64,000 bases of DNA from Isoetes taiwanensis (lineage: Eukaryota > Streptophyta > Lycopodiopsida > Isoetales > Isoetaceae), in contig JAJEKV010000025.1 of assembly GCA_021234155.1 (NCBI GenBank), forward strand, positions 7,640,531-7,704,530, read 5' to 3'. Below, piece by piece: positions 8,452 through 55,159 of this stretch. The stretch's first letter is position 1. Every line of letters starts with the position of its first letter. Both the position numbers and the translations under genes were made by a program. The notes beneath the pieces were generated by a model. It ran no database searches, was not told the DNA's origin, and saw only the letters and a program-made list of their open reading frames with translations.

Positions 8452-8567
8452 GGTGAAGGGCGAAGAGCCATAGTGTCTCACTGCTTACCTGACGCCCCTT
8501 TCCTTATTACCATTCTCATGCTAATATTGGTCTGTTTGGGTGCAGGTAACCGAGACACAATCTCCTG
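8452..8567 (+). promoter_or_regulatory. Conserved RNA hairpin around a splice site, unit A2
   Basis: The order is a small GGC-GAAGA-GCC hairpin, then outer stem strand ATAGTGTCTC (8470-8479), then CTTACCTG (8484-8491) and CGCCC (8493-8497). A variable apical hairpin containing GCTAAT follows, then GGGTG (8538-8542), CAGGTAA (8543-8549) and the closing strand GAGACACAAT (8552-8561). CTTACCTG pairs with CAGGTAA, CGCCC with GGGTG, and the outer strands pair at 9 of 10 positions. The right arm contains GCAG|GT at 8545/8546, a 3' splice site that also resembles a 5' splice site. The same fold recurs at 11652, 15523, 43019, 45376 and 52840. Confidence 0.75.
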
Positions 8568-11651: not shown

Positions 11652-11766
11652 GGTGAAGGGGCGAAAACCATAGTGTCTCCTTGCTTACTGGACCCCTTTC
11701 CTTATTACCATTCTCATGCTAATATTGGTCTGTTTGGGTGCAGGTAACCGAGACACAATCTCCTGT
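11652..11766 (+). promoter_or_regulatory. Conserved splice-site hairpin, unit A3
   Basis: This is the same outer stem as A2 (tagtgtctc with gagacacaat at 11750-11759) and the same CAGGTAAC at 11741. The left inner strand reads CTTACTGGACCCC instead of CTTACCTGACGCCCC, and the first small hairpin is also altered, so this copy is decayed or miscalled. Confidence 0.6.
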
Positions 11767-15522: not shown

Positions 15523-15638
15523 GGTGAAGGGCGAAGAGCCATGTGATTGTATTGCTTACCTGTCACTCCTCTCCTCATTACCAAGTTTTTGCTAATGTTG
15601 GTCTGTTTGGGTGCCGGTAACCACGATCACATCTCCTG
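15523..15638 (+). promoter_or_regulatory. Conserved splice-site hairpin, unit A5
   Basis: Outer stem ATGTGATTGT (15541-15550) pairs fully with ACGATCACAT (15623-15632), including one G-U. CTTACCTG (15555-15562) faces CCGGTAA, one mismatch. CACTC (15564-15568) replaces CGCCC and still pairs with GGGTG. This excludes an alternative pairing of that strand with the upstream GGGCG. The splice site reads GCCG|GT instead of GCAG|GT. Confidence 0.7.
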
Positions 15639-35689: not shown

Positions 35690-36215
35690 TAATTACAAAA
35701 CCAAAGCCCCACGATTGACGTTTCATTTTATCGCCCGACGCCGCTTCCATCGCCGATGATCGACGCCAAAACGCCGATAAACGACGTTTTTCGGGACGCC
35801 GGACTGTCGATAAACGACATTTATATGCCGCTATAACGCTGCCGCGAATCCCGGCGCCTTTTTTAAGTTTTTTATTACGACGCCGTTCAACGCCGCGGCG
35901 ACAATGGTCACGCATCAAGACTGCCGGGAGGACCGGGGCCAGCGTACCTACCGGGTGGCGATGATTCGCAACGCCGCTCAACGACGACAAGTACATCGCC
36001 ATCATGTCCGGTCTGGGCCAAGGAGCGCTGCCGCCAGAAGGTACCGGACGGTCGCCGCTGCGGTGAAACGCCGCTCAACGACGCTGTCGGGCGTGGTCGC
36101 CACTGCCCGGCCGTCACCGGGCTTCCGGCCCGCTATTTGAGAACGCCGCTCAACGACGCCACGACATGGCGTATTATCGGCAGCATAACGCCGCTCAACG
36201 ACGACATTAAGGAAT
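35690..36215. repeat. Subterminal palindromic array, copy B
   Basis: At least six copies of aacgccgctcaacgacga(c) occur, at about 35970, 36066, 36142 and 36186 among other places. It ends abruptly at AT-rich DNA as in copy A. Confidence 0.7.
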
Positions 36216-37315
36216 TTTGATAAAAAAAATATTTATTTAATATTATTCAATATGATTTAATCCGGACAGCTTAATATTCATATTCAAAAATTAACAAATA
36301 TTTAATATAAATAAATATTTAGTAATATTTATTAATATTAATATTATCAATAATATTAATAGTATTAATAAATATTAAATATGAACAAAATAAATCGAGA
36401 ATAAATATTTAAAAAATTTAAAAATTCGAAAAATAGAAACAAATATTGATTAAATTATATTAATGGTAGATAAGCATTATTGTTTAATATGTAATTAAAT
36501 GTTTAATAAATCTAAGAATAAAAAAATAGAATCGAAAGCATAAAAATTAACATAACAAAAAATCACAAATAATAAGAACAAAGCATAAAAATTTAAATTG
36601 AATTCAATTAATATATTTCACAAATGTAATTTTGCACATTACAAAATATATTAAGTCTTTAGTTGTTGCCTTCTTCTTCTTCTTCATTGGCTTTGCCTTC
36701 ATTTACCCGCATTATATTGTATCGCAACAATTAGTTCATTGTAGTCACAAATAATTATCTAATGAATGATACACACTTCATCCCCTTTCACGCTGCTAGC
36801 ATGTGACGCGCGATGGTCGCGATGATCGCCTTTGTTTGAAGGCCCTTTCGCTCATCTTTAGCAAAACGGGCGACCAAAGAAATGACGCCTATTGAGAATG
36901 AGCACCAAAACTAATGTTAGTGTTCAACTCGAACCTACATTATAAAACCAAATTTATACTTACAAATAGTTTATCCGTAAAAGCCATAACCGCTGCATCA
37001 GCCTTTATTGGCACTATGGTCGCCACTTGTTTCGCCTGCATTCTGGGCCCAAATACGCCTTTGTTCTAGCTTCCCCTTTCTTTGATAATATGTTGGCCTT
37101 CAAACACTACAATGCAATACAAGGACTTAGTCCACATGGCATCACCTAATTATACCACTCATGGGAGAGATGATGTACTTGAAATGCCTCATTAGTCAAC
37201 TGTGATAGGGTCGTGGCCACTTCCTATTCTGGGACTCCTCAGAAGCTTTGGCAAGTATTTTCACCGCTTTTCCGACACCTCCGCAAAATATAAATAAAAT
37301 ATGAGTACAATGAGG

Positions 37316-39345
37316 TTATAATGAAGAACCAAAGAGCCTAATACCCGGTGGATTTAACATGTTTACCCCGCTTTTGAACAAACCTCCTCCATGAGATCTC
37401 TCCGACTTGAGCTCTGGATATTCTCGGGCTTCTAAAAGCTCCTTGATCCTCTCTTTTCCCCTCATCATAGGCTCCCCGAAGTTCCATTCACCCTTGTGGA
37501 CGCTATGGCAAACGCCATTTGTGACATTATTAGCCATCTTCCAAAAATTGTCGCCATCCGCAGTTGTCGGGCGCCGCAACTTCGCTACTACACTCAACAT
37601 ACCACTAACATATGAATATGTGTTAGTGAACAAAAAGGGCATAATTCAAGATGAACCCACCATATTGAAAGAGATGCCTTCGCGGAGGTGGTGCGTGGTG
37701 CACCATCTTTAACCGTGAGCTTGAAGAGGAATTGCGCCCCATCTCGACGTAGACGCACGGCCGGCTTCCTTGGGGTTCATTCTCCCCTCGCGCTCGAACG
37801 GGCCCAAGATTGAATTCTCAAGGAGTGTATGAGCTATGACGGAGGGTCATCGCGGGCTTCGCATTCCTCCGCTTCTACTTTGTTCAACAAACCAAGGCAC
37901 TTCCATTTCTGGCGACATCCCGAATTGCAAGGCATTCCACCTATCTTCAGTGGTTATCGCCGATGATATCCTGAAGTTCCCTCGCTTCTTCGCCAGTTTT
38001 CCCCGCCGGATGGTGGTCCTTTTCCCGCCTCTTCTACGGTGGTGGTGAGAAGAAGATCCGCCCATAACCAATTAATCATCTAACATTATGCATAGGAAAA
38101 GAAGGACGCGAACCGCATTTACACGCCACATTTAAAAACATTAGAACGTTAAAAATAAATGGTTAACTTACATTTTATCCTAGAAAAAATCCATACCAAA
38201 TCCACACAATGGTGGAGGTGGGTGGTGGCGAGCTAAACCCGAACGACCAACTTCGCCTCTTAAAGGCCCTTTGCAGGTTTAGGGTCGTCAATAAGGCTAC
38301 CAAGCCACGCGAGAAGTAAAGTTGTGAACAATAGATATGCCATCGCCGCGATCCCATGGTTGTCGGACATGTGCAAAAACTTGCAAGTTATTTATATGGA
38401 GGCCATGAATAACATAGTAGGAAAGCAACAAATGTTAGCAACATGGGAAGTTCATTACAAAACATTGGGATTTGAATAATTAAAAGTGTCTTTATATATT
38501 TGGTTATTAGACAATTAAAAAATTTAATAATTTTAAACATGGCAAGATATACAATATTGTATTCATTATTTGAGTTGTGACAACAACAATTTTGACATCT
38601 CCAAGGCATCCATGCACTTCATGTGTCGCCTTTTTGTCTCACAACCATGGTAGAAGATATTCCAACACTTTGTAAGGCTTCAAACAACTTCGAAGCTTTG
38701 GTCGTGGATGAGAATACGCCCTCAATGTAGGGCACATCATTCTTGTTTTTGCTCCTCCAACTTGTCAAGACGCCGTTGGTACATATGGGTTGGATTAATC
38801 CATTGGGCATTGTTGTTATTATTAAAACCACTCCATTCGCCGTGATAGCTTGTAATGAAATCCGTAAGCATCTCATAAATATATCCCAATGCATAGACAT
38901 CATGAATTTCGTGGTCCCCATATACCCATCATCATCCTTTGATTTCTCAAACACAGCTTCTAACCATGGATATTTTGTTTGTCCATCCCAAAGTAAGTAA
39001 GTAATACACTTCAACAAGGGACGACGCCTTTTACGTGAAAATGAATTGCATTGTCCCAATCACCAATGGCACCCCCACACATTTTGGTACTCATCATCAA
39101 AATGTAATTTGACTCTCTTGCAATTAAGCTTTGTGTGAGGAAGTGGCCTTTTGGATCTCAACGCACACCTTCGCTAGGGCAAGAGCTATCTTCGAACATA
39201 CCGATATACAACTCGTGATTTTGTTCCTAAGTTCACCTATGTTTGTCGGGCTCTTCTTGGCGCTTCTAGCAATTGCATTTGACCATCTTCTAAAACGACA
39301 AGTTATTAGGTAAATAGTCAAACAAGTGTGCAAGTGTCTCTCCAT
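37316..39345 (-). pseudogene. Decayed minus-strand coding tract, copy B
   Basis: Better preserved than copy A. Open pieces from 5' to 3' on the minus strand are 39345-39124, 39059-38619 (YPWLEAVFEKSKDDDGYMG, MMSMHWDIF, LFEALQSVGISSTMVV) and 37642-37316 (FWKMANNVTN, GEWNFGEPMMRGKERIKEL). The largest piece is 146 codons. Matching peptides in copy A support real ancestry. I recognise no family. It is a candidate accessory transposon protein. Confidence 0.5.
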
Positions 39346-40450
39346 TCATGAAAGGTAGAATCACCATTGGCCCTATGGTATCCCCACTAGAGCTTTAGTA
39401 ACTTCATATGCAAGTCCAATGGATGTAGCCAAAGATGATGGCTCTTGAAGCTGCATGTATCTTGAGCCATCTCATACGCCTCCGCCTCTATCTTTTGTTC
39501 CTTGAAAACCCATCCAATCAGATAGCCTCATCATCTTGGAAGTGTTGTGTTCCGCTGATCTTGATTTGATACGGCGATGTGTTGGTTTTTCCTCAATAAG
39601 GCGACACATCCACTTCTACTGGCATGGGGATCAACAAAGATTGATGTGTTCATGTGATTCTCCAAAGAAAAGTGGCCTTGCTTAGCCCTCGCCCACTAGA
39701 GCTTCCCTCGATGCAAAGCATTTTTAATTACCTCCAACCGACGCGGTATTGAGATCCGCAATGATGTTCTTTGTGATCCAAACGCCGCTTCTTTGAGGAA
39801 TTCCATGAAGCTACCCATTCCTTGATACTTAGCCCCTCGCATTTGAACTTTTAAGTCGGTGACCGAATGCTTCAAACATGTCTTCGTTCATCCATGGGGT
39901 TTCCAATCATTGGCTTTTACATGTGTGTCAAGGAGAGAAGTCAACATTTCTCTTGACCGCCATTTTGTGCTAACTCAAATTGGCACTTCCTTTTCACATG
40001 TCCGACAAAATGGCGCACATCGCTGACTGGGCTTTGCATCTCCCCGTCGGGACTTTCGTTAGCACATATCTCATTTATGACCATGCCTAATCTCACTAAT
40101 CATTAGTGTCTTCACAAATGTGGGCCATACCTTAAAAACCAATTTAGATTCATTAATCTTGCTTTGTGACTTTTTCAAACCTTCATTATGAATCTTTTAC
40201 CTACTTCTTTAAGAGTTAGTTTCCTTTTTTTTTTTTTTTTTTTAAAACCAACTATTTAAATTTTTTTTTACTTTTAACCACTCCACATCGTTGTTTCTTT
40301 GACATCCCTAACATCTTTAAAAACAACATTCTTAACTAGAAACTAAAAAATCAATAATGCAATTTTTTTCAAAAAACCCTGCCCTTGTCCAATCCCCAGA
40401 AAGATTTCTATTTATTGATATATTAAAAAAAAAAATAAAGTAGGGGAGTG

Positions 40451-40790
40451 GTGAGCTTGACCCTGAACACCTAGTCTTCTCCACTCAAGGCGGAGCCGAC
40501 CATGCCCTTGTCCAAGTCTCCCCAAATTTTTCTAAACTAAATACATTAATCAATAAAATTGTTAAAGAGTAAACCAAGTGAGCTTGGACCCGTGAACACC
40601 TAGTCTTCCACTCACAAGGAGATTTAACCATGCCCTTGTCCAAGTCTCCCCATTTTTTTCTAAACTAAATACATTAATCAATAAAATTACAAGAGTAAAG
40701 AGTGAGTTTTGACCGGAACACCTAGTCTCCTCCACCTGTTATGAGTCACCTCATGCCCTTGTCCAAGTCTCCCAAGTTTTTTTAACCTAA
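40451..40790. repeat. Triple tandem repeat, copy B
   Basis: This is three units of ~125 bp starting 'gtgagctt(g)ga', as in 5021-5360, with more small changes. Confidence 0.8.
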
Positions 40791-41030
40791 ATAAAACATT
40801 AAAATTTTATTCTCCCACTAAACTCAAATTCTTACCTAGAATGTTCGAGCCGCGAAAAAATCGATTTCCAAGAGTTTAATGATTTTGTTATTAGTGTACA
40901 TGCAAAAAAAAATAAAGGCATTCAATAATTAGAAAACTTACATAAATAAAGAAATAAATAAAACCCCTTTTAAGCCCCGATTTACATCGACATTTAAGAC
41001 CCTAAGTCCATTTGACATAAAAGCTATAAG

Positions 41031-41602
41031 TTAGATTCCTTGAGAGAAAGCTATAAGTTAGATTCCTTCAATAAAACATTGTTATAAGGATTAATGCATG
41101 GTTATTCGCTAAAACTTTGAGATGTTGAGATAGTTTATTATAACAGTCTACATGTTTAAAACTATGACATAATATAATTGGGAAATTAATGTGCTGGAAT
41201 TTGTATGTTGTCATATGATATATTAAAATAAGAGATTGCTATTTAGAAACTATATGACCAAGAATTACTTTATGAACAATATATTTCCTCAAATTCGAAA
41301 ATTAAATGCTCATTGAATTTGATTTTATGAACAATGGATATATTTTCTAATAGGATGTAAAATTAAATCTGATATGATTATCTTACTACATTCTAAAACT
41401 TTATATATAAATATTAAATGATTAATTGCATAATTATATTAAAGAAGTTCATTATTCCAACCATGTTTTAGGTATTGTGCCTTCCATTTTGGTTTTACCC
41501 TTGATGGATATGTGGGAATGTATTCTACATCTTGAACAGAATCAGAAATTGTAGTAAAATTTTTACCATGTAAGTCTTGATTTAAATGTGAATAAGAAGA
41601 AA
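41031..41602 (+). mobile_element. Truncated retroelement repeat end (unit B1)
   Basis: Same fragment as 5617-6180, with the same doubled 'agctataagttagattcct' junction, more diverged in its second half. It runs to 'aataagaagaaaatgtga' and then, unlike copy A, switches to a different sequence. That fits insertion of unit B2 at the short GAAGAA. Confidence 0.65.
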
Positions 41603-42145
41603 ATGTGAGTTGAAAAAGGATAAAAAAGGATACTATGAGAAAGATTGGCTAAGTATGTGTTGAAAAAGAGGAGTTGAATATGGTTGAAAGAGATAATATA
41701 TTTGTTTAAGGGAAATAGTGGCAAAATGTTTGTTATGATGATAAACCTATGAATATAACCTATATATTCTTTACCTTGATAAGTTGTGACAGGTTGGTGG
41801 ACATACTTTACCATGCCTTTATTGGCAAAAAATAGCATGTTGGATCGTTTATACCATGAGAATAGTTAAGGTACGTACAAATATACTTATTAAATGCTTT
41901 TCGGTGGTCAAGATTCTATCTCAGCCCCCCAGAAAAATACGGTCAGAGTATATAGATATTACTTGAAGACCTAGGGCTATTTGACATAAAGCAAAAAGAA
42001 AAAATCTGATATGGCCGGTGGCATTAAATTATGGTGATGTCTTATACGAAATTATCCTTGCCATAACTTATCCTTAGGTTTGAAGTGCCGAAACCTCAAT
42101 CGGCGCCTAAGGAAACACAGCCGCTTCATTCTGAGATTTTGAAAC

Positions 42146-42310
42146 ATGCCAAAAGGTGTTTATTTGAGAGGCCCTGAGAAGAAATACAGGGCTAGAGGGC
42201 AAGATGGCGGCCCAGATAACAAGTTTCCAAGGAATAATAATGGAAATCGGCCTCCTGGTAGTTCAAGCATGCAAAGGACCAATAACCCAGTTGGGAGCAG
42301 CGATAATCAG
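42146..42310 (+). CDS. Leader exon 1, unit B2
   Basis: This is fifty-five codons starting MPKGVYLRGPEKKYRARG and ending SSDNQ at CAG|GTACTG, phase 0. It is basic at first and Asn/Gly/Pro-rich after. Only the start and the composition are conserved with other leaders. Unspliced, it would stop at 42334. Confidence 0.6.
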
Positions 42311-43018
42311 GTACTGGAGATAAAAGTACTCTGATTTTTCGATATATTCTGCTCTTTCTTGTAGATATGAGTGCTATGAAGTAAATGGATTATCACGATG
42401 ATATTGTACAAAAACAGAGTTCGATTTTTATGATAAGCTGGCAGTAGAAGAAACTAAAGAAATGAGTAATGTGTAGTTGATCTTGAGATGATAGTGTAGG
42501 TAACGTTTGAGAAAGATAAAGCTTTATGTTATGATCTGCATTCTAGCTTTGATAATCACCACTTATAAGTCTTAAATGGCCCATACTACATTGTTTGATA
42601 TGCTGAAAATAGTTTATTGTCATTATTAAATAAATGTCTGCATGGTCAAATAGATCTATACATTAGGCGTGAAGCCTGCATGTAGGAATAGTATTAGTCA
42701 TTACTGCTTTATATCTGATAAAAACGCATGTGAGATAGTACGTACATGAAGTATGGCTCTTTTTCTACCTTAGGTGGTCTGAGACTTGTCTACAAGCATA
42801 ATAAGTTAAGGATACAAGTATAATTTCAGGGGAATATGGAAGATGTAATGATTTCCTTATATTTTGTGGTCTAAAGAAGGCCGCCTCCATACTTTGTTGA
42901 ACTGAACTGTGGTAAGCAGTTTAGACCTTTTGATTGGTCTCACAAACAGGTTTTTACATGTAGTGCACATATACTTCAATAGTATCTGGTGCATATGATT
43001 ATATATTTGATTAACTTA

Positions 43019-43136
43019 GGTTGAAGGGCGATGAGCCAGAAAATCTAATAGCTTACCTGACGCCCCTTGTCTTGTTACCTTTGTTTGCTAACATTGACAT
43101 TGTTTGGGTGCAGGTAACCTAGATTTTCTCTACTTG
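43019..43136 (+). promoter_or_regulatory. Conserved splice-site hairpin, unit B2
   Basis: Outer stem AGAAAATCTA (43038-43047) pairs perfectly with TAGATTTTCT (43120-43129). CTTACCTG (43052-43059) pairs with CAGGTAA (43111-43117), and CGCCC with GGGTG. The small first hairpin is GGC-GATGA-GCC. The branch-point-like GCTAAC lies in the apical hairpin. In this family exon 2 has a stop as its third codon in the leader frame. Confidence 0.75.
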
Positions 43137-43618
43137 GAGTTTATCAAAGTTCTATAGTGCTTATTACGCACTACGATACAAAGACTATTGTTGTTTCCTA
43201 GGAAAAATGATATTTATACATGCAAGATACCCTATTGGTGAGATCTGTCTTAATTTTTAGATAAATACTACAACTGATTTATGATTTGGATAAAGAAATG
43301 AATGGATAAGGAAACATATTTTCTATTTTCTATATTGTAGTTCTTTCTCATATAAATAAATGTCATGGAAACATTTCATATGCTGTATCTTATGTTTTAA
43401 AGATTTACGAGATAATTGTTTACGTACACATAACAAAATAAACTTTTTAAATTATCATAAAATACATTTTTAAAGAAACGAAATCATAGAGAAATAATAT
43501 AATATGAAAGTACATGATAACTAAAAATGGATTACTAGACATGGCATATATTTATACAAGAATAATGCTACTGATTATAACTTGAAATGTAACAGTAATA
43601 TGAGATGGTGCCTAAATA

Positions 43619-43650
43619 GTGGCCTGGGTGTTAAAACCCAGGGTGGATAT
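43619..43650 (+). other. 3' stem-loop type 1, unit B2
   Basis: GTGG-CCTGGGTg-ttaa-AACCCAGG-GTGGATAT is the strongest stem of the set, about 40 bp before the GAA-rich tail. Confidence 0.7.
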
Positions 43651-43689
43651 ATTGGGTTGTTTGTTCCTTTGTTTTATAATATACTTAGA

Positions 43690-43730
43690 TGAAGAAGAAG
43701 GGAATAAAAGAAGAAGAAGAAGGAAGAAGA
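43690..43730 (+). repeat. Impure (GAA)n between units B2 and B3
   Basis: GAA runs are interrupted by 'ggaataaaag' and 'ggaagaag'. Impurity suggests an older tail than the pure tracts. Confidence 0.9.
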
Positions 43731-44250
43731 ATAGATAACACGGAGCATATGAAAAATATGCAATGTTTTCAATATTATCATGAGATAGACAAAAAAGATG
43801 AGACTTGGGAAAATACGTGATATTTACATTAGATGCTAATATTTCATGTGTATGCATTTGCTTGATCCGATATCACCCGATACCATGGAAATTAACATGA
43901 TATTTATAGCTATAATGGCTTAGGTTAACCATTAATGTGGAATTAGAGGGATATTATTTATTATATATGTTTATGGATATTAGGGGATATTTTTATGAAG
44001 GATATTCAATACAATGGGAAGATCGAGAAGGATTTTTAATTAGGGTATGCCCTACGGAAGATTGAAAGATGGATCCTGGCAGTTTGCATTAAACATGGAG
44101 AGACTAATGGCAGCAACTTCTTTTGACCGATGCTTTATAGCCTGGGCGGGATGGCCACAAACACATTTTGTTTCTGGAAATTTGGATCGACTTACCCTCT
44201 GGACCTTGAGTGAAAATTTCGATTCTTTGGTGATACATACAGTGATCAAG

Positions 44251-44411
44251 ATGCCAAAAGGGGTGTACGAGAGAATCCCTGGGAAAAACAAGAAGATGCC
44301 AAACACTGGGAGCTATCCACCGAGGAAGTTTGGCAAATCAAATGCTGGAATCAAGTTCAATAATGCTAAGGAGCAAAATAGACAAAGTGGTGGAGGGAGC
44401 TCAAATCTGAG
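44251..44411 (+). CDS. Leader exon 1, unit B3 first repeat
   Basis: The frame starts MPKGVYERIPGKNKKMP, then PPRKFGKSNAGIKFNNA, then Gly/Ser. It ends at CTGAG|GTTTAT where the second repeat has ACAG|GTTTAT in phase 0. The small change puts this copy in another phase and could be a sequence error at a CAG site. An open frame extends upstream to 44047, but the conserved start is here. Confidence 0.55.
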
Positions 44412-45375
44412 GTTTATAATACTTCAATATTTGATGCATGCTTAAATATGCCTTTATAGGCGTCATTGTGGTATGCATAACCTCGCTTAGTTGTATTTTT
44501 AAAGCTCTAAAATAGCTTAAACTCTATATTTGGAAGCCTTTTGGACATGGTAAATTTAGCATAAGAGGCACCTTCCTTGGAATAGATCTAGTTTATAGTA
44601 GGTCTTAGTTAGACGCTGCTGATACAAGTCTGATAATTGAATAATATGAGATAATATTATGTTGTTAAGAAATATTTTATGAGGATGCAGTCTGCAGTGT
44701 GGCTCCTTTGGCGATGGGTTCATATTTGCTGGTTTACGTAATAATTATGCATAAAAGACTGCCATGATAAGTTAATTTCTGAATAGATATAGGCATTGTC
44801 TATCAAGAGTCTAATAATGTCTTATAGCTGGCACTGCTAATGCTATCTTCATTTGAATATGATCTGCTTTATGGTGGTTTGTTTGGACTTGCATGCTTGA
44901 TTTTATGAGCCTATATGGAAGTCCCCTTGGGCATTAAACTAAGGTCAGCCGGATTAAACATACTGCATGCTTTTAGAAGCAAGATAGCAAACTATGTTCT
45001 GGAAAATACAAAAGTAGTAAGATAGGCTTAGATAGAATGTAGAAGATAATGAAAGGTAGATCTGATCTGTAAGACTATTAGGTTATTTTACATGGTTCTT
45101 CAAGATTATGCTGGCATAATGATTATCTGAAAGTCATGGTCAATACATGGTAACAGTTAGACATTTGGTACAGCCATATGAAAATAGCTAATTCTTTGAT
45201 GAATATGATCTTTGCATGAGGTAAATATTCAATCTTTGATTAGATAGACAACAATAAGGGACTGACGAGTTGAAATATATGTTTTTGAACAAGTAGCATT
45301 ATTACTATACAGCTGATACATGCTATAATTTCTTATTTATTCAAACTGACCTTGTATAAGGCATTTGAGCCTAAA

Positions 45376-45488
45376 GGTGAAGGGCGAAGAGCCACGTAGT
45401 TTCACTGCTTACCTGACGCCCCTTGCATAGTTACCGTTTGCTAACTTATGTCTTGATTGGGTGCAGGTAACCGAAACTACGTCTCCTT
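45376..45488 (+). promoter_or_regulatory. Conserved splice-site hairpin, unit B3 first repeat
   Basis: Outer stem ACGTAGTTTC (45394-45403) pairs perfectly with GAAACTACGT (45473-45482). CTTACCTG (45408-45415) pairs with CAGGTAA (45464-45470), and CGCCC (45417-45421) with GGGTG (45459-45463). The apical hairpin ATAGTTA/TAACTTAT holds GCTAAC, a branch-point match ~30 nt before GCAG|GTAAC (45466/45467). Intron 1 would be ~1.05 kb. Confidence 0.78.
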
Positions 45489-45953
45489 GATGTTGGTTCA
45501 AATGCTTTTTCATAAAAAATATCTTGGAGCTGTTTTCTTGGACTGTTATGGTACAAAGAGAAATGGCAGCTTATGGTATGATCTGTCCAATATATAATAT
45601 GCAGGCTTATGGTTTGGAGATCTGCTCTTGATCTTAAGACTTATACTTGACATTCTAGATTCTGAAACTATTGAATGAAGCATATTATGTTTATAGTGAA
45701 TTGAGCAATATAAATTGAACAGTATGGATTAAGATTTCTCTAATATTGTAGAATGTATTGCTTGAAACCAAATGATCAGATTCTTTATTTATCGTATGTT
45801 GCTACACATTTATTCTAATAATATATGATAAGATTAAACTAAAACAATGTAAATACTTGAAGGCAAATAAACACTACAGGATATGTAAAATGACAGTCTG
45901 GATTCTTTCTGTAATAAATCTGCTTGTTCTCTTAAATTTGCAACTATACATGT

Positions 45954-45981
45954 GTGGCCTGGGTAACGCCAGGGTGGATAT
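45954..45981 (+). other. 3' stem-loop type 1, unit B3 first repeat
   Basis: GTGG-CCTGG-gtaacg-CCAGG-GTGGATATG, about 85 bp before cgaagaagaa. Here transcription would read on into the ORFs, so this copy would act as an early alternative 3' end. Confidence 0.65.
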
Positions 45982-46268
45982 GGGTAGTGTTGTCTTTGCC
46001 TAGAAGGAGTACGGATTAATGTAGGGTGTACAATAATCTGTTATGTAATCGTGGCAAAGATGTATCGAAGAAGAATTCGGGACTTCCACTTGCTAGAGAT
46101 ATCTGGCATGCACACATGTCTGTTATAAAGTTACATATAGAATTTCTGATCCTCAGCCTGCTGAAACAAGTTTCCTCATGGTTGGTTAGACCAACCTATC
46201 ATTTAATGTTTTTACTGTCATGAGAGATTTTGGCTTAATGCTAATCTTCTTCTGGTATGTATGTACAG

Positions 46269-47750
46269 AGAAAAATAGGGTGGCATACACAGTTGGCTGG
46301 TCTCGGCTATGATGTGCTGGGAGATGCGCCAAATATGGCAGTTCAGTCAATATTATGTCTAATCCCTGAAAAGGAGATACATGACTTCCTGATTGCAAAA
46401 GCAAAGGACCTTCCGGCAGGTACATTTTCTCCCATCAGCCACCTAGGTTTCAGTAGTTGGCTGGAGATATTTAAGAAACTTGATGAAAAGAAGATGATTG
46501 CAATAGAATGCCTATGTATTCTAGATCAAGTGTTTGCTGAAACACAAGAAGTACTAGCTGACAGAACGGATATGGACGATATGCTTGCATTGGAGTTTAA
46601 GCTAGGAGTTACATACCTTGAGAAAGTTCATGAATTAACTGATGTCACATTTGAAGTAAAAGGCAGCACAAAGATCAGCCCTGGTACGGAAGAGCTGGGC
46701 ACACAGGGCTTTACCAGCTATATACCTCAAGTGGATTTAGATCTTATGAAAAAAGAGAGTGAAGCTCAAGCAATAAACATGAACTCAGATGATATTATCA
46801 GACTTACTCTGCAGAACTGCATTAGATTCCCCATCATCTCAGAGATGGCCATAGAATGGTTAGGGGAGGAATTTGCACATGGATTATGGCGCAGCCAGAA
46901 TTATGGGACTCTTGCCCCTATTAGCAAAAAGGCTTGGATAATTATGGCTGGTCTGACCACAGAGGATCTTGCTGAAGTTGAAAACTCCGCCAACAGTATG
47001 ACGAAGATCATGGATAAAGAGGAAATCATCTTTCCCATTGGTACACATTTCTTTGACAAAAGATGTCAGATGAACAAAGGGCTTACTTTCTATATTAAAG
47101 CACACATGGGATATAAAGATGTAGAGAGAAATTACTCTTTCGTACATCGTATATGGAGAAGCTTCAGCCCTTACTTCAAATGTAATTGTCAAGCGTGTGC
47201 AGACACTATTACATGGTTTGACCAGGCTGTTTGGTATGTACTGAATCATTTGGAACAGGTTTATCCAAGGTACACACAGGCTGGTCGGATGGGATCCTTT
47301 CTGTTTTTCATACAACAAAATCTGAAACGACCTGTTATGGCCCAATTAGCATACATGCAAGTCAGAGAGATGTTGATTAAGATGACAAACAAACTAGCAT
47401 CAAATTCGAACTGTGATCTGAAGGCTTCATTTGGTGACACTAAACTGGTGGAGGTATGTGAAATTATGCTCAAAGACAAGAAGTTTTTAGCAAAAAAATT
47501 TAAAGGAAGTAATAACGAGCAGGTTGTGGCATACCAGTCAAACAAGACTGCCAGCGGAAGTGAATGCTTTTTGCCACCCAGGGTTACTAGGTCTAATCCG
47601 GATGCATCCTCAAAAGCAGTAGAAAGCATCATCAATCTATCTGATTCGATGGTAGTTGGTACCCCTGGTGAATGTTCAGTCAACAAAGGAGATAAACCAG
47701 AAGGACTGCATAAGTACTTAGTGGATAAGCCAGAAAGGCTACTCTACTGA
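46269..47750 (+). CDS. ORF1 of retroelement B3, unknown 494-residue protein
   Basis: The open frame starts in phase 0 right after 'tatgtacag|aga' (46268/46269), a good 3' splice site. The nearest ATG, 46257, lies in the predicted intron, so translation probably comes from leader exon 1. The protein starts RKIGWHTQLAGLGYDVLGD and ends KPERLLY. It is mostly helical in appearance, with a Cys cluster CNCQAC (near residue 305), a conserved-looking WFDQAVWYVLNHL region, and a charged Ser-rich last 100 residues. I see no zinc-knuckle, protease, nuclease or RT motif and recognise no family. Lying upstream of RT on the same strand, it may be an RNA-binding partner or an N-terminal part of the RT protein: GAG|GTATGT at 47453/47454 is a strong phase-0 5' splice site that could join it to the RT exon. 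Confidence 0.8.
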   Translation, partial: RKIGWHTQLAGLGYDVLGDAPNMAVQSILCLIPEKEIHDFLIAKAKDLPAGTFSPISHLGFSSWLEIFKKLDEKKMIAIECLCILDQVFAETQEVLADRTDMDDMLALEFKLGVTYLEKVHELTDVTFEVKGSTKISPGTEELGTQGFTSYIPQVDLDLMKKESEAQAINMNSDDIIRLTLQNCIRFPIISEMAIEWLGEEFAHGLWRSQNYGTLAPISKKAWIIMAGLTTEDLAEVENSANSMTKIMDKEEIIFPIGTHFFDKRCQMNKGLTFYIKAHMGYKDVERNYSFVHRIWRSFSPYFKCNCQACADTITWFDQAVWYVLNHLEQVYPRYTQAGRMGSFLFFIQQNLKRPVMAQLAYMQVREMLIKMTNKLASNSNCDLKASFGDTKLVEVCEIMLKDKKFLAKKFKGSNNEQVVAYQSNKTASGSECFLPPRVTRSNPDASSKAVESIINLSDSMVVGTPGECSVNKGDKPEGLHKYLVDKPERLLY

Positions 47751-48955
47751 TTTCATGATTTCTCATGACAAGGGTCTACAGGCCCTTGCATGCATTCCTG
47801 CTATCTGCAGAAGACACTATTTGGGCCCACTGACTGCCCATAGTGTACTTAGATACCAGACTTCATACTAAATAATATTTGCGATAGATATATGCTTTTC
47901 CTTGTACTTAATTATTGTACAATATGCAGACCTCTATGCATACGCAGGGATGTTTTGAGATATGTCCTAATGTAAGCTTTCATAATGAGATGGTTCTGTT
48001 TTCTACATACGCTTATAAATGACATGCTACAGTTCATTTCTAGCAGAATAAATATAATACTGAAGTAGGCTCATCGTCTAGCTAGAAGAATTACAAACAT
48101 AAAGTAATATGATAGATTTACAATGCTTAATGGAAATATCAGACAATTTATACTGCATGCAAGATGGTTAAGAATATGTTCAAGGGCGCATGGAGTACAA
48201 ATTACAGTGTTGAATATACAGAAATAGGCAAACAGATGCAGCACACTACAACAATGTGCAAAAGCGGATGGACCTGAAAAAATATGCCATAAAGGCAGAG
48301 ATTAATCCCCTGTATGACACGTTATTCTAGATTAAAGGTTGGATATACAATAAAACAGGCATGCAATAATAATCTAAGATATATTTGGAGATATCTAAAA
48401 TAAAGTTAAAGGGTTCTTTGAGCACAAATACACCTAAATATGAATAGTATTCGGGTGACTGTATATCTAGATATTAATAGGTTCTAAAATGCAAATTCGC
48501 CAAATAATAGTCTAATATGCTCGCTATACACATGTTCGAAATAGCTATAGTAGAGAGAGACTACTATAATAATACAAAAAATCAGGACAGATATGTACAG
48601 TAGGCATATGCCGGAAATATTTATTGAAAAAGGCGCATTCATGGGCATGGATTCGCTTCCCTACGGCAATAAGGCTATATCTTTGGAAGCATTGGTTGGA
48701 TATATGTCTAGATATAGGGCTTACTGGCCGATGATCTACAGAAAATGCCCTATTGGACGATGCAAGTGGTAAGATAAACAATGCAGATGCAAATTTACTA
48801 CAGAGATTATGGATCGTAAAATAGTGCGTGAAGATTACTAATAATTCAGATAAGATAATGTCTCTTAGATGTATTCTACTTTAAGATGTGTATCTATAAA
48901 GGTCCCTGCAAATATTTCAAAAGAGATGCACTGAGAAAAACTCCATTGCATGCAG
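47751..48955 (+). other. Probable intron or spacer between ORF1 and RT
   Basis: About 1.2 kb of AT-rich DNA without ORFs. It ends at 'gcatgcag|gat', a 3' splice site in phase 0 with the RT frame. The pyrimidine tract is weak. Confidence 0.5.
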
Positions 48956-51028
48956 GATATTGAAGAGGAAAAACGAGTGATCGTGCGGAATTCAAATGGG
49001 CATAAAACACTATTTAACAAGAGGCTGCTGGAAAGACGTAAGATCAGGATACACTTTCTATTTTCTTCAAAATTAATGGATAAGCTAGAGATTAACACCT
49101 GCATTAAGGAATATATCATTAAAAGGCTTGGAGATTTTGGTGAATTTATAATGCAAGATACGGCTTTTGGCTGGAGATATTCAAAGCCACTTGTAGACTA
49201 TATGTATAAGCCATTCAGAATTTTTGCAGCTGAAGAGATCCCTAAATGCGTTTGTCAGGCGCCTGGATTGGCAAGATACATTGATAAAAGTGTTGGCCAT
49301 GTGAGAACACTGGATGTTAATATCATCAAGTCAAGAGAATTAAGAAATATGGTCCAAAAGGGACTAAATTACATCCCTGATAAGCCTTTATGCATAGATG
49401 AGCTCATGACAGACATGGATAAAGGTTTAGAGCAGTTTTTTGAATGGCATGCTGCCAGAGGGAGATCTCTACATCCATTGGAAAAGGATGGGATCAAGAG
49501 AAGTCTACTTAGGATTATTAAGGAAAAGGCAGAAGACTTAGTTAAACGACATAAAAAAACGAAATGTGCTCTGTATGATTATAAAGTCAGAAAAGCAATG
49601 GATTGGATTGTGAAAAACCTTTATGTTTCTGGTGTTGACAAGGCGACAAATGTGCCTTCATTTATATGTCCATGGCATATCAGGGACATGGCAAGACAGA
49701 GGTTGCAGGGTTCAGATTTTGAAGGTCACAAGATAAAGATTGACAGTTTACAAATTCAGCTGGATGAGAGCCTAAAACTGCATTTTGATCTAGATTGTCC
49801 ATACAAGGATAGGATGCCTTATCTATTAGGTACTTTTAAAGCGCATAAAAGCGAATATCGCTGGATTACTAATGCCAATCGTACAATATTCACTTTACCC
49901 GCAAAGATTATATCTAGAGGTCTCAGAGGCATTATTGATGTTCTTCCGAAAGCATATATGGAAAAGATGAGTAGACTGAATGTGCTTCTACCAGGCAAGG
50001 TTAACCCATTCTGGATGGTAAATTCGATGTACGAAGTCATGTTAAACCTACCCGCCAAAATACATGACATATTTACTGCTGACATTTCTAAATGCTATGA
50101 AAATATACCAGTTGAGGGTGACAATGGTATCTGCAATGTTATGGGGCAGATTATAGAACTGGCTATTTCCTATATGAGCGGAAATGGGGCTAAATTTAAG
50201 CTATGGTACAAAGTAATTGAGGATGACGTTGTGTCCAAATGGAGTAATTGTAACCAAGATGGCAGCTCATGGCATAGTATGGATTATATACAGTTCTATC
50301 AATTAAACACTTGGCTGCTAAAGAATTGTTTTCTAATTCAAGGGACCAATGTGTGGAGACAACGAAGCGGCATTCCGATGGGTTTTGCATGCTCTCCAGA
50401 GTGGTGTAACATATATCTATCATTTTTTGAATATACTTTCATAGAGAAATTAGCACAGCAGGGCAGATTTCAGGATATTATAAGATTCAAAGATGCCAAA
50501 CGGTACATGGATGACCTTTTTATCCCAAATGGTGGGTGTTTAGATGAATTCTTCCAAAAGGAGAAGAGCTGCCTAGACAGCTGGAATATATACAATCTAG
50601 ATGTGCTCCAAATAAAAGATGAAACGATATATAAATACAATAATGATGGATCAAAGGGAGCAGGTTATAGAGGTAACTTCCTCAATGTTTCTTTTGAGGT
50701 TTTAGACCAAGCTACAGGACTGTTTAGGACCAGCAGATATGATAAAAGAACTAAACTTCCGTTTAGAATTATCAAGTTCATCCATGCATCCAGCTGTCGG
50801 CCATACCTGAATGCAAGTAAAGTGATCATATCGCAAATTTTACCATACTTATATGCACATTCGAGTCCAATCGAGGCGGCGAAAGATATCACTGGATTGA
50901 TTGAAGAATTCACAAACAATGGTTTTCTAAAAGAGGATCTAATAGAGAATGTTACTCGTATGATTGCTTCTGAAGAATTTCCAGGTCTGATTTATGATGC
51001 TAAAATAGTTTTAAGATATCTTAAATAA
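48956..51028 (+). CDS. Reverse transcriptase ORF of retroelement B3 (Penelope-like)
   Basis: This is an unbroken frame of ~690 residues (counting from the ATG at 48950, which probably lies in an intron). The N-terminal part has CVC (100-102) and GHVRTLDVNII, then a basic helical region. The RT core starts near 292 (LLGTFKAHK, RWITNANRTIFTLPAKI). Motif A is TADISKCYENIP (Asp 378), motif B is SGIPMGFACSP (473-483), and motif C is YMDD (519-522) followed by a thumb with RYDKRTKLPFRIIKF. The catalytic Asp residues are all present. The GIPMG..CSP / Y-M-D-D / YDKR pattern recalls Penelope-related RTs of animals (GIPMGTNCAP, YIDD), from memory. No GIY-YIG, APE, RNase H or integrase is visible. It probably copies element RNA at a DNA end or nick in GAA repeats. 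Confidence 0.9.
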   Translation, partial: DIEEEKRVIVRNSNGHKTLFNKRLLERRKIRIHFLFSSKLMDKLEINTCIKEYIIKRLGDFGEFIMQDTAFGWRYSKPLVDYMYKPFRIFAAEEIPKCVCQAPGLARYIDKSVGHVRTLDVNIIKSRELRNMVQKGLNYIPDKPLCIDELMTDMDKGLEQFFEWHAARGRSLHPLEKDGIKRSLLRIIKEKAEDLVKRHKKTKCALYDYKVRKAMDWIVKNLYVSGVDKATNVPSFICPWHIRDMARQRLQGSDFEGHKIKIDSLQIQLDESLKLHFDLDCPYKDRMPYLLGTFKAHKSEYRWITNANRTIFTLPAKIISRGLRGIIDVLPKAYMEKMSRLNVLLPGKVNPFWMVNSMYEVMLNLPAKIHDIFTADISKCYENIPVEGDNGICNVMGQIIELAISYMSGNGAKFKLWYKVIEDDVVSKWSNCNQDGSSWHSMDYIQFYQLNTWLLKNCFLIQGTNVWRQRSGIPMGFACSPEWCNIYLSFFEYTFIEKLAQQGRFQDIIRFKDAKRYMDDLFIPNGGCLDEFFQKEKSCLDSWNIYNLDVLQIKDETIYKYNNDGSKGAGYRGNFLNVSFEVLDQATGLFRTSRYDKRTKLPFRIIKFIHASSCRPYLNASKVIISQILPYLYAHSSPIEAAKDITGLIEEFTNNGFLKEDLIENVTRMIASEEFPGLIYDAKIVLRYLK

Positions 51029-51051
51029 TTAACTAATGCGTGTAGGATAGT

Positions 51052-51122
51052 AGGACCCTTCTTTTCATAGGAAGGGTCCTGCATCCTATTATGCATTCAT
51101 TAATGCATCCTATGAAAAGAAG
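51052..51122 (+). other. 3' stem-loop type 2 after the RT gene
   Basis: Arms CTTCTTTTCATAGGA (51058-51072) and TCCTATGAAAAGAAG (51108-51122) pair at all 15 positions. A competing local hairpin AGGACCCTTC/GAAGGGTCCT (51052-51080) is also perfect, so the RNA could switch. A G-rich tail 'gagggagggttgtgggcgaagaag' and the GAA tract follow. The chain A element has the same layout with compensating changes. Confidence 0.7.
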
Positions 51123-51150
51123 TGCCCTAGTACCCGAGGGAGGGTTGTGG

Positions 51151-51193
51151 GCGAAGAAGAAGAAGAAGAAGAAGAAGAAGAAGAAGAAGAAGA
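51151..51193 (+). repeat. (GAA)n between RT 3' end and second repeat
   Basis: Pure GAA run of ~43 bp joining 'tgtgggc' to 'atagataacacgg'. Confidence 0.95.
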
Positions 51194-51711
51194 ATAGATA
51201 ACACGGAGCATATGAAAAATATGCAATGTTTTCAATATTATCATGAGATAGACAAAAAATGATGAGACTTGTGAAAATACATGATATTTACATTAGATGC
51301 TAATATTTCATGTGTATGCATTTGCTTGATCACGATAATACTGATACCATGGAAATTAACATGATATTTATAGCTATAATGGCTTAGGTTAACCATTAAT
51401 GTGGAATTAGAGGGATATTATTTATTATATATGTTTATGGATATTAGGGGATATTTCTATGAAGGATAATTGATACAATGGGAAAATCGAGATGCATTTT
51501 TAATTAGGGTATGCCCTATCGTAGACTGAATGATGAATCTTAGCAGTTTGCATTAAACATAGAGGTACTAATGGCGGCAACTTTTGACCGGTGCTTTAAT
51601 GGATGGGCGGGATGGCCTCAAATACATTTTGTCTATGGAATTTTGGATACGACTTACCTACAGACCTTGAGTGAAGGCGCTCAGTTGCTGGTGATACATA
51701 CAGTGATCAAG

Positions 51712-51873
51712 ATGCCAAGGGGAGTCTACGAGAGAATCCCTGGGAAGAACAAGAAGATGCCAAATACTGGGAGCTATCCACCGAGGAAGTTTGGCAAATC
51801 TAATGCTGGAATCAAATTCAATAATGCTAAGGACCAAAATAAGCAAAATGGTGGAGGGAGCGCTCAAATACAG
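51712..51873 (+). CDS. Leader exon 1, unit B3 second repeat
   Basis: Fifty-four codons from MPRGVYERIPGKNKKMP to GGGSAQIQ, ending phase 0 at ACAG|GTTTAT. Phase 0 agrees with exon 2 of other families and with ORF1 at 46269. The start codon follows the same 'gtgatcaag' context as the first repeat. Confidence 0.6.
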
Positions 51874-52839
51874 GTTTATAATACTTCAATATTTGATGCA
51901 TGCTTAAATATGCCTTTATAGACGTCATTGTGGTATGCATAACTTCTGCCGTTGTATTTTTTAAAGCTCTAAAATAGCTTAAACTCTATATTTGGAAGCC
52001 TTTTGGACATGGTAAATTTAGCATAAGAGGCACCTTCCTTGGAATAGATCTAGTTTATAGTAGGTCTTAGTTAGACGCTGCTGATACAAGTCTGATAATT
52101 GAATAATATGAGATAATATTATGTTGTTAAGAAATATTTTATGAGGATGCAGTCTGCAGTGTGGCTCCTTTGGCGATGGGTTCATATTTGCTGGTTTACG
52201 TAATAATTATGCATAAAAGACTGCCATGATAAGTTAATTTCTGAATAGATATAGGCATTGTCTATCAAGAGTCTAATAATGTCTTATAGCTGGCACTGCT
52301 AATGCTATCTTCATTTGAATATGATCTGCTTTATGGTGGTTTGTTTGGACTTGCATGCTTGATTTTATGAGCCTATATGGAAGTCCCCTTGGGCATTAAA
52401 CTAAGGTCAGCCGGATTAAACATACTGCATGCTTTTAGAAGCAAGATAGCAAACTATGTTCTGGAAAATACAAAAGTAGTAAGATAGGCTTAGATAGAAT
52501 GTAGAAGATAATGAAAGGTAGATCTGATCTGTAAGACTATTAGGTTATTTTACATGGTTCTTCAAGATTATGCTGGCATAATGATTATCTGAAAGTCATG
52601 GTCAATACATGGTAACAGTTAGACATTTGGTACAGCCATATGAAAATAGCTAATTCTTTGATGAATATGATCTTTGCATGAGGTAAATATTCAATCTTTG
52701 ATTAGATAGACAACAATAAGGACTGACCAGAGTTCGAAATATATGTTTTTGAACAAGTAGCATTATTACTATACAGCTGATACATGCTATAATTTCTTAT
52801 TTATTCAAACTGACCTTGTATAAGGCATTTGAGCCTAAA

Positions 52840-52952
52840 GGTGAAGGGCGAAGAGCCACGTAGTTTCACTGCTTACCTGACGCCCCTTGCATAGTTACCG
52901 TTTGCTAACTTATGTCTTGATTGGGTGCAGGTAACCGAAACTACGTCTCCTT
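52840..52952 (+). promoter_or_regulatory. Conserved splice-site hairpin, unit B3 second repeat
   Basis: Identical to 45376-45488 in all paired strands: outer stem at 52858-52867 and 52937-52946, CAG|GT at 52930/52931. After it the leader frame reads VTETTSP and then a stop, so including this exon would end translation. Confidence 0.75.
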
Positions 52953-53422
52953 GATGTTGGTTCAAATGGTTTCGTATTCATAAAAAATATCTTGGAGCTG
53001 TTTTCTTGGACTGTTATGGTACAAAGAGACATGGCAGCTTATGGTATGATCTGTCCAATATATAATACGCAGGCTTATGGTTTGGAGATCTGCTCTTGAT
53101 CATCAAGACTTATACTTGACATTCTAGATTCTGAAACTATTGAATGAAGCATATTATGTTTATAGTGAATTGAGCAATATAAATTGAACAGTATGGATTA
53201 AGATTTCTCTAATATTGTAGAATGTATTGCTTGAAACCAAATGATCAGATTCTTTATTTATCGTATGTTGCTACACATTTATTCTAATAATATATGATAA
53301 GATTAAACTAAAACAATGTAAATACTTGAAGGCAAATAAACACTACAGGATATGTAAAATGACAGTCTGGATTCTTTCTGTAATAAATCTGCTTGTTCTC
53401 TTAAATTTGCAACTATACATGT

Positions 53423-53451
53423 GTGGCCTGGGTAACGCCAGGGTGGATATG
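53423..53451 (+). other. 3' stem-loop type 1, unit B3 second repeat
   Basis: Same as 45954-45981, here followed ~85 bp later by a long GAA tract, as expected for a used 3' end. Confidence 0.7.
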
Positions 53452-53534
53452 GGTAGTGTTGTCTTTGCCTAGAAGGAGTACGGATTAATGTAGGGTGTAC
53501 AATAATCTGTTATGTAATCGTGGCAAAGATGTAT

Positions 53535-53610
53535 CGAAGAAGAAGAAGAAGAAGAAGAAGAAGAAGAAGAAGAAGAAGAAGAAGAAGAAGAAGAAGAAGA
53601 GGAGGAGGAG
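53535..53610 (+). repeat. (GAA)n(GAG)n tail of unit B3
   Basis: GAA repeats turn into GAG repeats in the last ~12 bp before 'attttggaaattt'. Confidence 0.95.
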
Positions 53611-54537
53611 ATTTTGGAAATTTAAAATATGATATGAAAGGGTGTAATGGGATCCTTAAGGGACAATGGAATAAAGATGGAGAGGATGGCTCTAATTAAA
53701 TAAGGCTACAATATGATGGGGCGGGGATTATGGTATTAAAAAAGATGGCATGTGGGGATTAGAATTGGCATGGGAATAGTAGTTGATAGAATACTGCTGA
53801 CTTAGGCAAAAGGAATGATGTACAAAAACTATGGGTATGAGATCATGGATACGTGACTACAAATAATATAAGGTATGCTTATGTTTGTTTTTATGGTTCG
53901 ATTTAATTTAGTGAAAAGCTAAGATCTAAATGGTGGTTAGTTGGAATATGTGATTGTTGGGCTGGAAATAGAGCTTTAAGAGGATATGAAAAATATAGGG
54001 ATAAATGGATGGTTTTGGCATTATGATTATATGGTTGGAGCATTAAATAGTGAGGCAGTTGATTAATTAACATATCATGTCATAAGATATGGTGTGAAAA
54101 GGAGATATTGTGGCTTTTTGCTTTATTGCAGACCTAGGCTAAGGAATGGTGTATAGAAATGCAGGATACGGGTGTACGGATACAAAATACAAAAGAAAAA
54201 AGGTATGGTGCTATGGATGGTTGTATTTATTGCAAAAGCTAAGGGTCAGGTGAAGATTTCTTGAGTATGAGGCCGAGTTATGAACGCCGGCACAGCTGGT
54301 AAAGGCTCCGGAATATGGTCAAGATAAGATTTCTTGAGTATGATGCCGAGTTATGAATGCCGGCACAGCTGGTAAAGATGGTCAAGATTGGAATAGGGTA
54401 GCCGCTGGCATTCAAGGCATAGTTGGTGAAAAAATATATCCAGAATTGTATTTATGCGGAAGGGCGCCCAATCTTAAGTGCCCGCTCAAATTTTTCGTAA
54501 GCGCTAGCGCTGAACAGAGTTGAACCGCTTAAGGATC

Positions 54538-54711
54538 ATGCCTAAGGGTGTCTATGCTAGAGGGCCGGGTAAGAGAAGCAAAGCTCAGGAGGCCGGAAAT
54601 GGACCTCCAAGAAAATTTGGAAAGACAAACTTTGGGAAGAAGACAAATAACAATACGGTGCAGCAAGCAGGGTCTGCATGGTACATTAGGTTATATGATA
54701 AGATGGAATAA
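54538..54711 (+). CDS. Leader-type ORF, unit B5
   Basis: Starts MPKGVYARGPGKRSKAQEAG, then PPRKFGKTNFGKK and Asn/Gln-rich, ending after 57 codons. It keeps the leader profile most clearly. No obvious donor follows; AGGTTATATG near 54686 is weak, so the peptide may be made unspliced. Confidence 0.55.
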   Translation: MPKGVYARGPGKRSKAQEAGNGPPRKFGKTNFGKKTNNNTVQQAGSAWYIRLYDKME

Positions 54712-55128
54712 GTTCTGGACAAGCTTATGAGGAAGATAAGATACTAATTTTCTAAACCTAGGTCTGATACGATAAATAATCTCATAATAGGATGGAAATA
54801 AGATATGTATGGCAGGGGTTAAGTAACTGTGTATAGATAATAATTATGAATACAAGTAAACAAAAAGCTTTCGGGAAAGTATGATAGTAATCAGTATGAC
54901 AGGCATAGAGAAGCAAATAAATGATTAGGGAATCAAGGGGAATGATAAACATGCTGGAATCTTGGCCTGGGAACGTAAGAAGCAGGGAGGAAATGGTAAG
55001 AATCATGGCAGAAACATGGATACATATGTGTAAGAGTGCTCCTTTAAGAATATATCACTAATTTATTATGGTACGTATGGTTTATTGGTGGAAATATTCA
55101 AATAACCATAGGATTGAGATGTCTTGTT

Positions 55129-55159
55129 GTGGCCTGGGTTAAAATCCAGGGCAGATATG
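55129..55159 (+). other. 3' stem-loop type 1, unit B5
   Basis: GTGG-CCTGGgttaaaatCCAGG-GCAGATATG: the stem is conserved, with one change in the otherwise fixed GTGGATATG. Confidence 0.65.

Follow-up and report, generated by a model that had tools for sequence, protein, structure and literature searches.

A conserved block of 112-115 nt occurs at six places in the window (the whole 64-kb stretch of DNA analysed here), and it is very likely a real, selected RNA structure carried by a retroelement. The domain sits in the direct repeats of this element, following a conserved first coding exon and preceding ORF1, and is proposed as a candidate new RNA family. Its function can be assigned only tentatively: judged from sequence features, it may be a cis-acting element that marks unspliced genomic RNA for copying, a reading given a little less than an even chance. 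That the domain works in some way in this divergent retroelement's unspliced RNA is more likely than any single rival explanation.

The six copies, named below by their first positions, were located at 8452, 11652, 15523, 43020, 45376 and 52840, in agreement with an earlier, sequence-only reading of the same DNA, in which the fourth had been placed at 43019. A covariance model built from the six copies was run unfiltered on both strands of the 64-kb window and returned the same six, as expected by construction, with 116-139 bits and E <= 5.7e-24; a seventh copy is absent from the window, the next match having E = 1.9. Only four of the stems are independent, all within this one window: the 45376 and 52840 copies are identical over 112 nt, and 11652 arose as a tandem copy of 8452 that has since decayed. 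Among the four families identity is 0.79 (79%) over the domain; it falls to 0.60-0.62 in the four flanking segments of 115 nt, and random pairs give 0.58. In a self-comparison of the window it is through the domain that 15523 and 45376/52840 are connected to the 8452 family. The best-kept sequence block within it is GGTGAAGGGCGAAGAGCCA. The strand CTTACCTG, described earlier as invariant, and its partner CAGGTAA are each exact in five of the six copies, but 11652 carries CTTACTGG and 15523 has CCGGTAA.

The domain was also searched for elsewhere. No Rfam family, ribozymes included, matches any part of the window at gathering score; at E values up to 5, two copies gave three snoRNA matches far below gathering score, the best with E = 0.27. 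In viral contigs, 17-base patterns gave 21 and 23 stretches, none of which was taken as a copy. On all 44 loci the covariance model produced five matches to E = 1, the best with E = 0.057 and 21 bits, against at least 116 bits for the window copies. No report of this RNA domain was found in the literature searched, most subscription papers lying outside it.

Folded singly with 35-45 nt of flanking sequence, the six copies, which represent four distinct stems, share a general plan: an outer stem P0, a mini-hairpin PX and a rod formed by P1, P2, P3 and P4 meet in a three-way junction (Table 1). P1 is a variable 10-bp stem, separated from P2 by an internal loop with 5 nt on one side and 2 nt on the other, while P2, P3 and P4 are near-invariant. 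P0, variable and absent from the earlier reading, extends the structure by about 13-27 nt on each side past the coordinates given there. It starts near an ATTTGA motif common to the four families, and its consensus end consists of GGUGA and UCUCC around a U.U mismatch; in 45376 and 52840 the inner register is shifted relative to the RNAalifold consensus, A45380 being paired with U45488 in the lowest-energy fold. The outermost A of the P1 5' arm competes with P0 for U45482. PX has the motif GGC-GAWGA-GCC, with the loop GATGA (GAUGA) in 43020 and two pairs only in 11652. A 19-nt block holding PX is exact at four of the five sites found, with two mismatches at 43020, and was not found in 11652 by a search allowing up to 3 mismatches.

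Table 1. Coordinates of the domain copies, of the structural parts of the 45376 copy and of the host element. Positions are those of the window; a slash marks a splice point.
Feature	Position	Strand	Basis or remark
Domain copy, broken-exon-1 subfamily	8452..8566	+	covariance model, 139.3 bits
Decayed tandem copy of the 8452 domain	11652..11764	+	116.1 bits; P3 gapped
Domain copy with CACTC arm, AG lost (GCCG)	15523..15637	+	127.0 bits
Domain copy with AGAAAATCTA stem	43020..43134	+	121.4 bits
Left LTR-like direct repeat, with domain	43732..46066	+	bounds by eye, triplet runs excluded
Exon 1 (MPKGVYERIPGK...), ends CTGAG/GT	44251..44411	+	1 nt shorter than right-repeat version
P0 5' strand (ATTTGA...GGTGA), mostly outside the first-reported block	45363..45380	+	folds, flank pairing, RNAalifold
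PX mini-hairpin GGC-GAAGA-GCC	45383..45393	+	3-bp stem unchanged in four distinct copies
P1 5' arm ACGTAGTTTC, variable	45394..45403	+	8 of 10 pairs changed on both sides
P2 5' arm TTACCTG ('U1-like' strand)	45409..45415	+	pairing and covariation test
P3 5' arm CGCCC (CACTC in 15523)	45417..45421	+	pairing and covariation test
P4 and apical loop, with TTACC and branch-site-like GCTAAC	45424..45456	+	RNAalifold, single-sequence fold
P3 3' arm GGGTG	45459..45463	+	pairing and covariation test
P2 3' arm CAGGTAA, holds acceptor-like CAG/GTAACC	45464..45470	+	motif search
P1 3' arm GAAACTACGT	45473..45482	+	pairing and covariation test
P0 3' strand (TCTCC...GGTTCAAATG)	45482..45504	+	folds, flank pairing, RNAalifold
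ORF1 exon after TACAG/AGAAAAATAGG (inferred acceptor)	46269..47750	+	reading frame; whole ORF1 46257-47750
Reverse transcriptase ORF with GIPMGF and YMDD	48950..51028	+	ORF, Pfam, protein search
Right LTR-like direct repeat	51195..53535	+	bounds by eye, triplet runs excluded
Domain copy inside right direct repeat	52840..52951	+	130.1 bits

The presence of four different versions of P1, each with its matching partner, was borne out: in the four distinct copies 39 of 40 cells are paired, the departures being one A.A in 8452 and one U.G in 15523. The replacement of CGCCC by CACTC opposite a constant GGGTG was likewise found as described, in 15523, where two one-sided changes preserve pairing. The significance of these patterns was evaluated on five distinct rows (the identical 52840 was left out) and the 22 pairs of P1-P3, by comparison with 500 shuffles. 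Paired cells amount to 96.3% against a shuffled mean of 83.1, double-change cells to 15 against 4.8, and the covariation score is 0.477 against 0.186; no shuffle reached any of these values. Pairs with a double change (8 against a mean of 4.1) and further pair types (16 against 11.2) were each equalled or exceeded in one shuffle of the 500. When partners are slid by 1-3 columns, pairing falls from 96% to 27-43%. All eight pairs with a double change belong to P1, where they make up eight of the ten pairs, and none to P2 or P3; since these two stems hardly vary, covariation there speaks neither for nor against the fold, the P3 changes of 15523 apart.

Two further analyses were run, one without a supplied structure and the other without an alignment. 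RNAalifold, given the four distinct copies without a structure, predicted 39 pairs, including inner P0, PX and P4; of these, 13 show double changes, and 7 have a break or gap in one of the four. Outside P1, double changes are found in P0, at columns 24/142 and 27/139 (in the latter G-C becomes U-A), and in P4, at columns 76/104, 79/100 and 80/99, a region where 45376 is poorly aligned. In an alignment-free test of copy-specific pairing, every 5' flank was paired with every 3' flank of the four distinct copies, for a total of 24 assignments. For the P1 arms the own-copy assignment ranked first of 24, with -42.6 kcal/mol where mismatched sets averaged -7.4; it also ranked first for the outer flanks of 25 nt, with -59.7 where the mismatched average was -30.7. 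Control flanks 30, 60, 90 and 120 nt further out ranked 13, 20, 13 and 18. Covariation against shuffles, slid partners, RNAalifold and copy-specific pairing thus support the earlier claim of a selected RNA structure.

The strand that folds can be told from the pairs which are not Watson-Crick: in the five rows P1-P3 contain six G-U and no A-C, besides four other mismatches, and as an A-C would be a G-U on the opposite strand, it is the sense RNA that folds. Folding energy is less striking than covariation, with z-scores of -4.3 (8452), -1.6 (11652), -1.8 (15523), -3.4 (43020), -5.5 (45376) and -4.5 (52840), so that 11652 and 15523 do not stand out.

Two other candidates were considered and rejected, both on inspection by eye. 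A protein-coding role was evaluated on the frame GTG AAG GGC GAA GAG, in which 8452, 15523 and 45376 have stops and 43020 remains open across the domain; changes in P1 alter residues in this frame, yet keep the pairs. A pairing of CTGCTTACC with an upstream GGTAAGCAG, seen near 42911, 15430 and 8180, has no counterpart in the sequence read upstream of 45376, from 44800 on.

The host element is delimited by direct repeats at 43691-46075 and 51153-53544, which are 95.9% identical and surround ORF1 and a reverse transcriptase ORF. Their identity is uneven, 81-97% over the first 900 alignment columns and 95-100% after, which suggests recombination or a template change between different copies. Exon 1 was seen in eight units, six of which carry the domain; of the other two, 54538 has hairpin B (see below) and a triplet run without the domain, and 13536 is cut short by a triplet run. 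In all six domain-bearing units exon 1 is followed by the domain, then by hairpin B and then by a triplet run, positions being assigned partly by eye. A triplet run is also present 5' of exon 1 in five of them (the exception is 42146), a hairpin C precedes the closing run in two, and ORF1 and the reverse transcriptase are contained in one.

The other repeated components of the units are as follows. The units are separated by (GAA)n/(AGG)n runs, 24-192 bases long, at 6698, 9821, 12492, 14136, 16221, 51153, 53536 and 55240; these represent either the tail at a 3' end or a site favored for insertion. Hairpin B, found near the end of each unit at 6063, 9186, 12382, 16100, 43619, 45954, 53423 and 55129, and in part at about 41485, exists in the versions GGCCTGGG..CCCAGG, GGCCTAGA..TCTAGG and GGCTTGGGT..ACCC, mostly followed by TGGATATG, and looks like a second covarying hairpin. 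Hairpin C, at 51030-51136 and also at about 6600-6690 and 9725-9815, is a long, very stable stem (GGACCCTTC...GAAGGGTCC) whose sequence differs among copies. A purine-rich tract and then the triplet run follow it directly, and of the 273 segments scanned over 41620-55400 the one containing it has the lowest energy z-score, -8.0. Other parts of the window contain a duplication of about 5.2 kb (960-6189 and 36206-41611, 79% identity), with 124-128-bp tandem repeats inside and no ORF of at least 150 aa; an array of tandem units of about 1.1 kb at 18309-22263, having 54-58% G+C against about 40% in the window; and, on the minus strand at 25888-26367, a tnp2-type transposase fragment (Pfam Transposase_21, E = 1.3e-29), whose presence hints at a plant host.

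The product of the reverse transcriptase ORF matches Pfam RVT_1 with E = 0.0032 and 17.6 bits, below the 29.6-bit cut-off. Among 5.8 billion proteins its relatives are three records with 30-32% identity, two of them being the same protein, once in a shortened form, and no PDB sequence match was obtained. Scans with two short peptide patterns each collected 137 viral-contig and 105 prokaryote-genome stretches, none of them confirmed by tblastn. For ORF1, no relative was found among 4785 candidates at E 0.001. The predicted structure models (pLDDT 43 for the reverse transcriptase, 33 for ORF1) are too poor for a structure search. A Pfam search of ORF1 and the reverse transcriptase ORF detected no GIY-YIG or other endonuclease domain and no protease, RNase H or integrase, the weak RVT_1 match being the only one seen. 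The reverse transcriptase may represent an undescribed lineage.

In eight units, six identified by pattern and two by reading, exon 1 codes for MPKGVYxRxPGKK... or a related sequence. Its continuity with ORF1 was evaluated on the five copies without an early stop, and the three with stops were left out. In three of the five (14756, 42146 and 51712) exon 1, of 171, 165 and 162 nt respectively, ends with CAG/GT at phase 0, and the frame of ORF1 after the TACAG/AG acceptor at 46269 is also phase 0. Exon 1 of the left repeat of the copy bearing the reverse transcriptase (161 nt) and that of 54538 do not join ORF1 in frame, nor does the second candidate donor of 14756. On the basis of the three copies joined in frame, an intron probably connects exon 1 to ORF1, and the domain would lie wholly inside it, so that full-length unspliced RNA alone would carry the domain and the spliced mRNA would be devoid of it. 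In the unit of 8452, exon 1 is broken by stops, yet the domain pairs well, as expected of a cis-acting signal.

In its organization, the unit resembles Penelope-like elements. Tandem or partial-tandem copies with pLTRs, a feature of that group, were found here by self-comparison and unit order, and according to two studies (PMC11167929, PMC3846280) tandem units, pLTR-like direct repeats including the coding start and a structured RNA at the junction of repeat and ORF are common to both; kept introns, known from that group, are probable here. The reverse transcriptases of Penelope-like elements are related to telomerase, and on this trait the observations here are the weak RVT_1 match and the few distant records given above. 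The element differs in that its ORF1 and reverse transcriptase ORF have neither GIY-YIG, the endonuclease of canonical members, nor another endonuclease in Pfam, in that the window contains no hammerhead at Rfam gathering score, and in its repeats of 2.3 kb and its weakly matching RVT_1 domain. The endonuclease-lacking Penelope-like elements of conifers and Selaginella (PMC9033089) likewise have a reverse transcriptase without endonuclease, in plant genomes, and may offer a further parallel. Gypsy and Copia LTR retrotransposons differ in having the protease, RNase H and integrase not found in the two ORFs. The retroviral packaging signal, RRE and CTE are cis-acting folds present only in unspliced RNA, as would be the case here; they share no demonstrated sequence or element type with the domain and provide a functional parallel, not a membership.

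The resemblance of P2 to splicing signals had led the sequence-only reading to a different interpretation, in which a U1-like strand covers a splice site with a double function. U1 pairs with 5' splice sites of this kind; TTACCTG is, however, whatever pairs with CAGGTAA, so that the U1 likeness is a single coincidence rather than two, carries no information and was set aside as mimicry. CAGGTAA itself is found at 18 sites in the window, 10 in the hairpin copies and 8 elsewhere, against 7 expected in shuffles. The likeness to a 5' splice site is poor, since donors usually have a G at +5 and CAG/GTAACC does not. The likeness to a 3' splice site fares better: GCTAAC or GCTAAT and a U-rich tract precede it in all six copies and TGCAG/GT is present in five, but 15523 has GCCG in place of GCAG. 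A role of the 3' arm as acceptor is plausible from these motifs. At 99-124 nt downstream, a donor-like G/GTGAGATCT, G/GTGAGATTAG or G/GTATGATCT is found in all six copies, with a search pattern picked after the sequences had been seen, and this gives some support to a small exon 2. Read at phase 0, the candidate exon is open to its donor in three of the six copies (8452, 11652 and 15523); in-frame stops occur after 2 codons in 43020 and after 7 codons in 45376 and 52840, hence in both repeats of the element bearing the reverse transcriptase. Its lengths are 120, 120, 99, 124, 109 and 113, those of 43020, 45376 and 52840 not being multiples of three. Exon 2 could be a stop-bearing exon with controlled inclusion, or a product of decay.

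The main rival explanation, a modified form of the earlier one, is that the branch site of this small exon, together with its AG and GT, is concealed by the fold: in folded RNA exon 2 would be skipped or the intron retained, while in opened RNA it would be included, with an early stop in the copies bearing the reverse transcriptase. A switch between unspliced and spliced RNA is possible in principle, and in addition to the motifs listed above it is favored by the constancy of the GGGTG and GGTAACC arms, while the facing arm changed from CGCCC to CACTC in 15523. That same copy has lost its AG although P1 is paired in 10 of 10 positions, the exon-2 frame is not kept, and the conserved 5' block GGTGAAGGGCGAAGAGCCA and PX have no explanation in splicing and call for another reason; masking is thus rated as rather doubtful, and yet the strongest of the alternatives. 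In a combined version, the fold would both bury the 3' splice site and bind a deep-branching, almost undescribed class of eukaryotic reverse transcriptase that picks this RNA for copying, making splicing and copying mutually exclusive; this is unlikely.

Clearly less weight than to masking is given to two explanations borrowed from other elements. The domain might be a new small self-cleaving ribozyme, cutting tandem transcripts into units in place of a hammerhead. It is favored by the one copy per unit in tandem arrays and by variable stems round a kept core, and PMC11167929 places a hammerhead at the pLTR/ORF junction of a Penelope-like element, where, however, its cleavage was dispensable for insertion in vitro; many of the kept bases in the domain are also paired, no Rfam family matches at gathering score and the loose matches of two copies are to snoRNAs only. 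Marginally below it stands a role in nuclear export alone, the domain recruiting host or element factors to unspliced RNA by analogy with CTE or RRE. Retroviruses solve the same problem in this way (PMC4829213) and a structured RNA in the inferred intron of a retroelement would fit, but the likeness is functional only. Two remaining explanations are very improbable. Template switching during replication, a documented mechanism (PMC8794818), could make or mend perfect inverted repeats without selection, and the P1 stems are near-perfect; single compensations in P0 and P4, the pairing kept in P3, an imperfect P0 with a U.U mismatch and bulges, an unchanged PX stem and the same plan in four families argue against it. 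A microRNA-like small-RNA precursor, equally improbable, would account for the facing arms, each about 17 nt long, that are kept at P2/P3 above a covarying lower stem, but not for the internal loop between P1 and P2 or for the kept 19-nt block with PX outside the arms.

The preferred reading, marking of unspliced RNA for copying, treats the domain as a cis-acting RNA; the retroelement to which it belongs is divergent, has long direct repeats and probably bears introns. Carried, as it would be, by full-length RNA alone, the domain would offer a handle to a protein of the element (the reverse transcriptase or the ORF1 product) or to a host export factor. Genomic RNA recognised in this way would be exported, packaged or reverse transcribed, and translation would be left to the spliced mRNA, which has lost the domain; the 3' splice-like sequence buried in P2/P3 would, as a guess, help to keep the RNA unspliced. 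A protein-binding signal on full-length RNA is the most economical account of a covarying, intronic, sense-strand fold, given the precedent of one Penelope-like element, for which PMC11167929 places protein binding and an internal start of reverse transcription within a stem-loop at the pLTR-ORF junction, and a protein-binding motif at the start of the ORF. Against it stand the frame failures of 44251 and 54538, the lack of the domain in 54538 and the decayed 11652 copy of the broken-exon subfamily. Furthermore, for the kept introns of Penelope-like elements an antisense template is the reason favoured in PMC3846280, and an antisense template would need no signal on unspliced sense RNA.

An intron-bearing retroelement must leave part of its RNA unspliced as material for copying, and have the remainder spliced so that it can be translated. 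To our knowledge, how non-retroviral elements of this kind do so is largely open. The domain is a concrete, small and testable candidate for such a signal, in an element whose reverse transcriptase has very few relatives in the databases searched.
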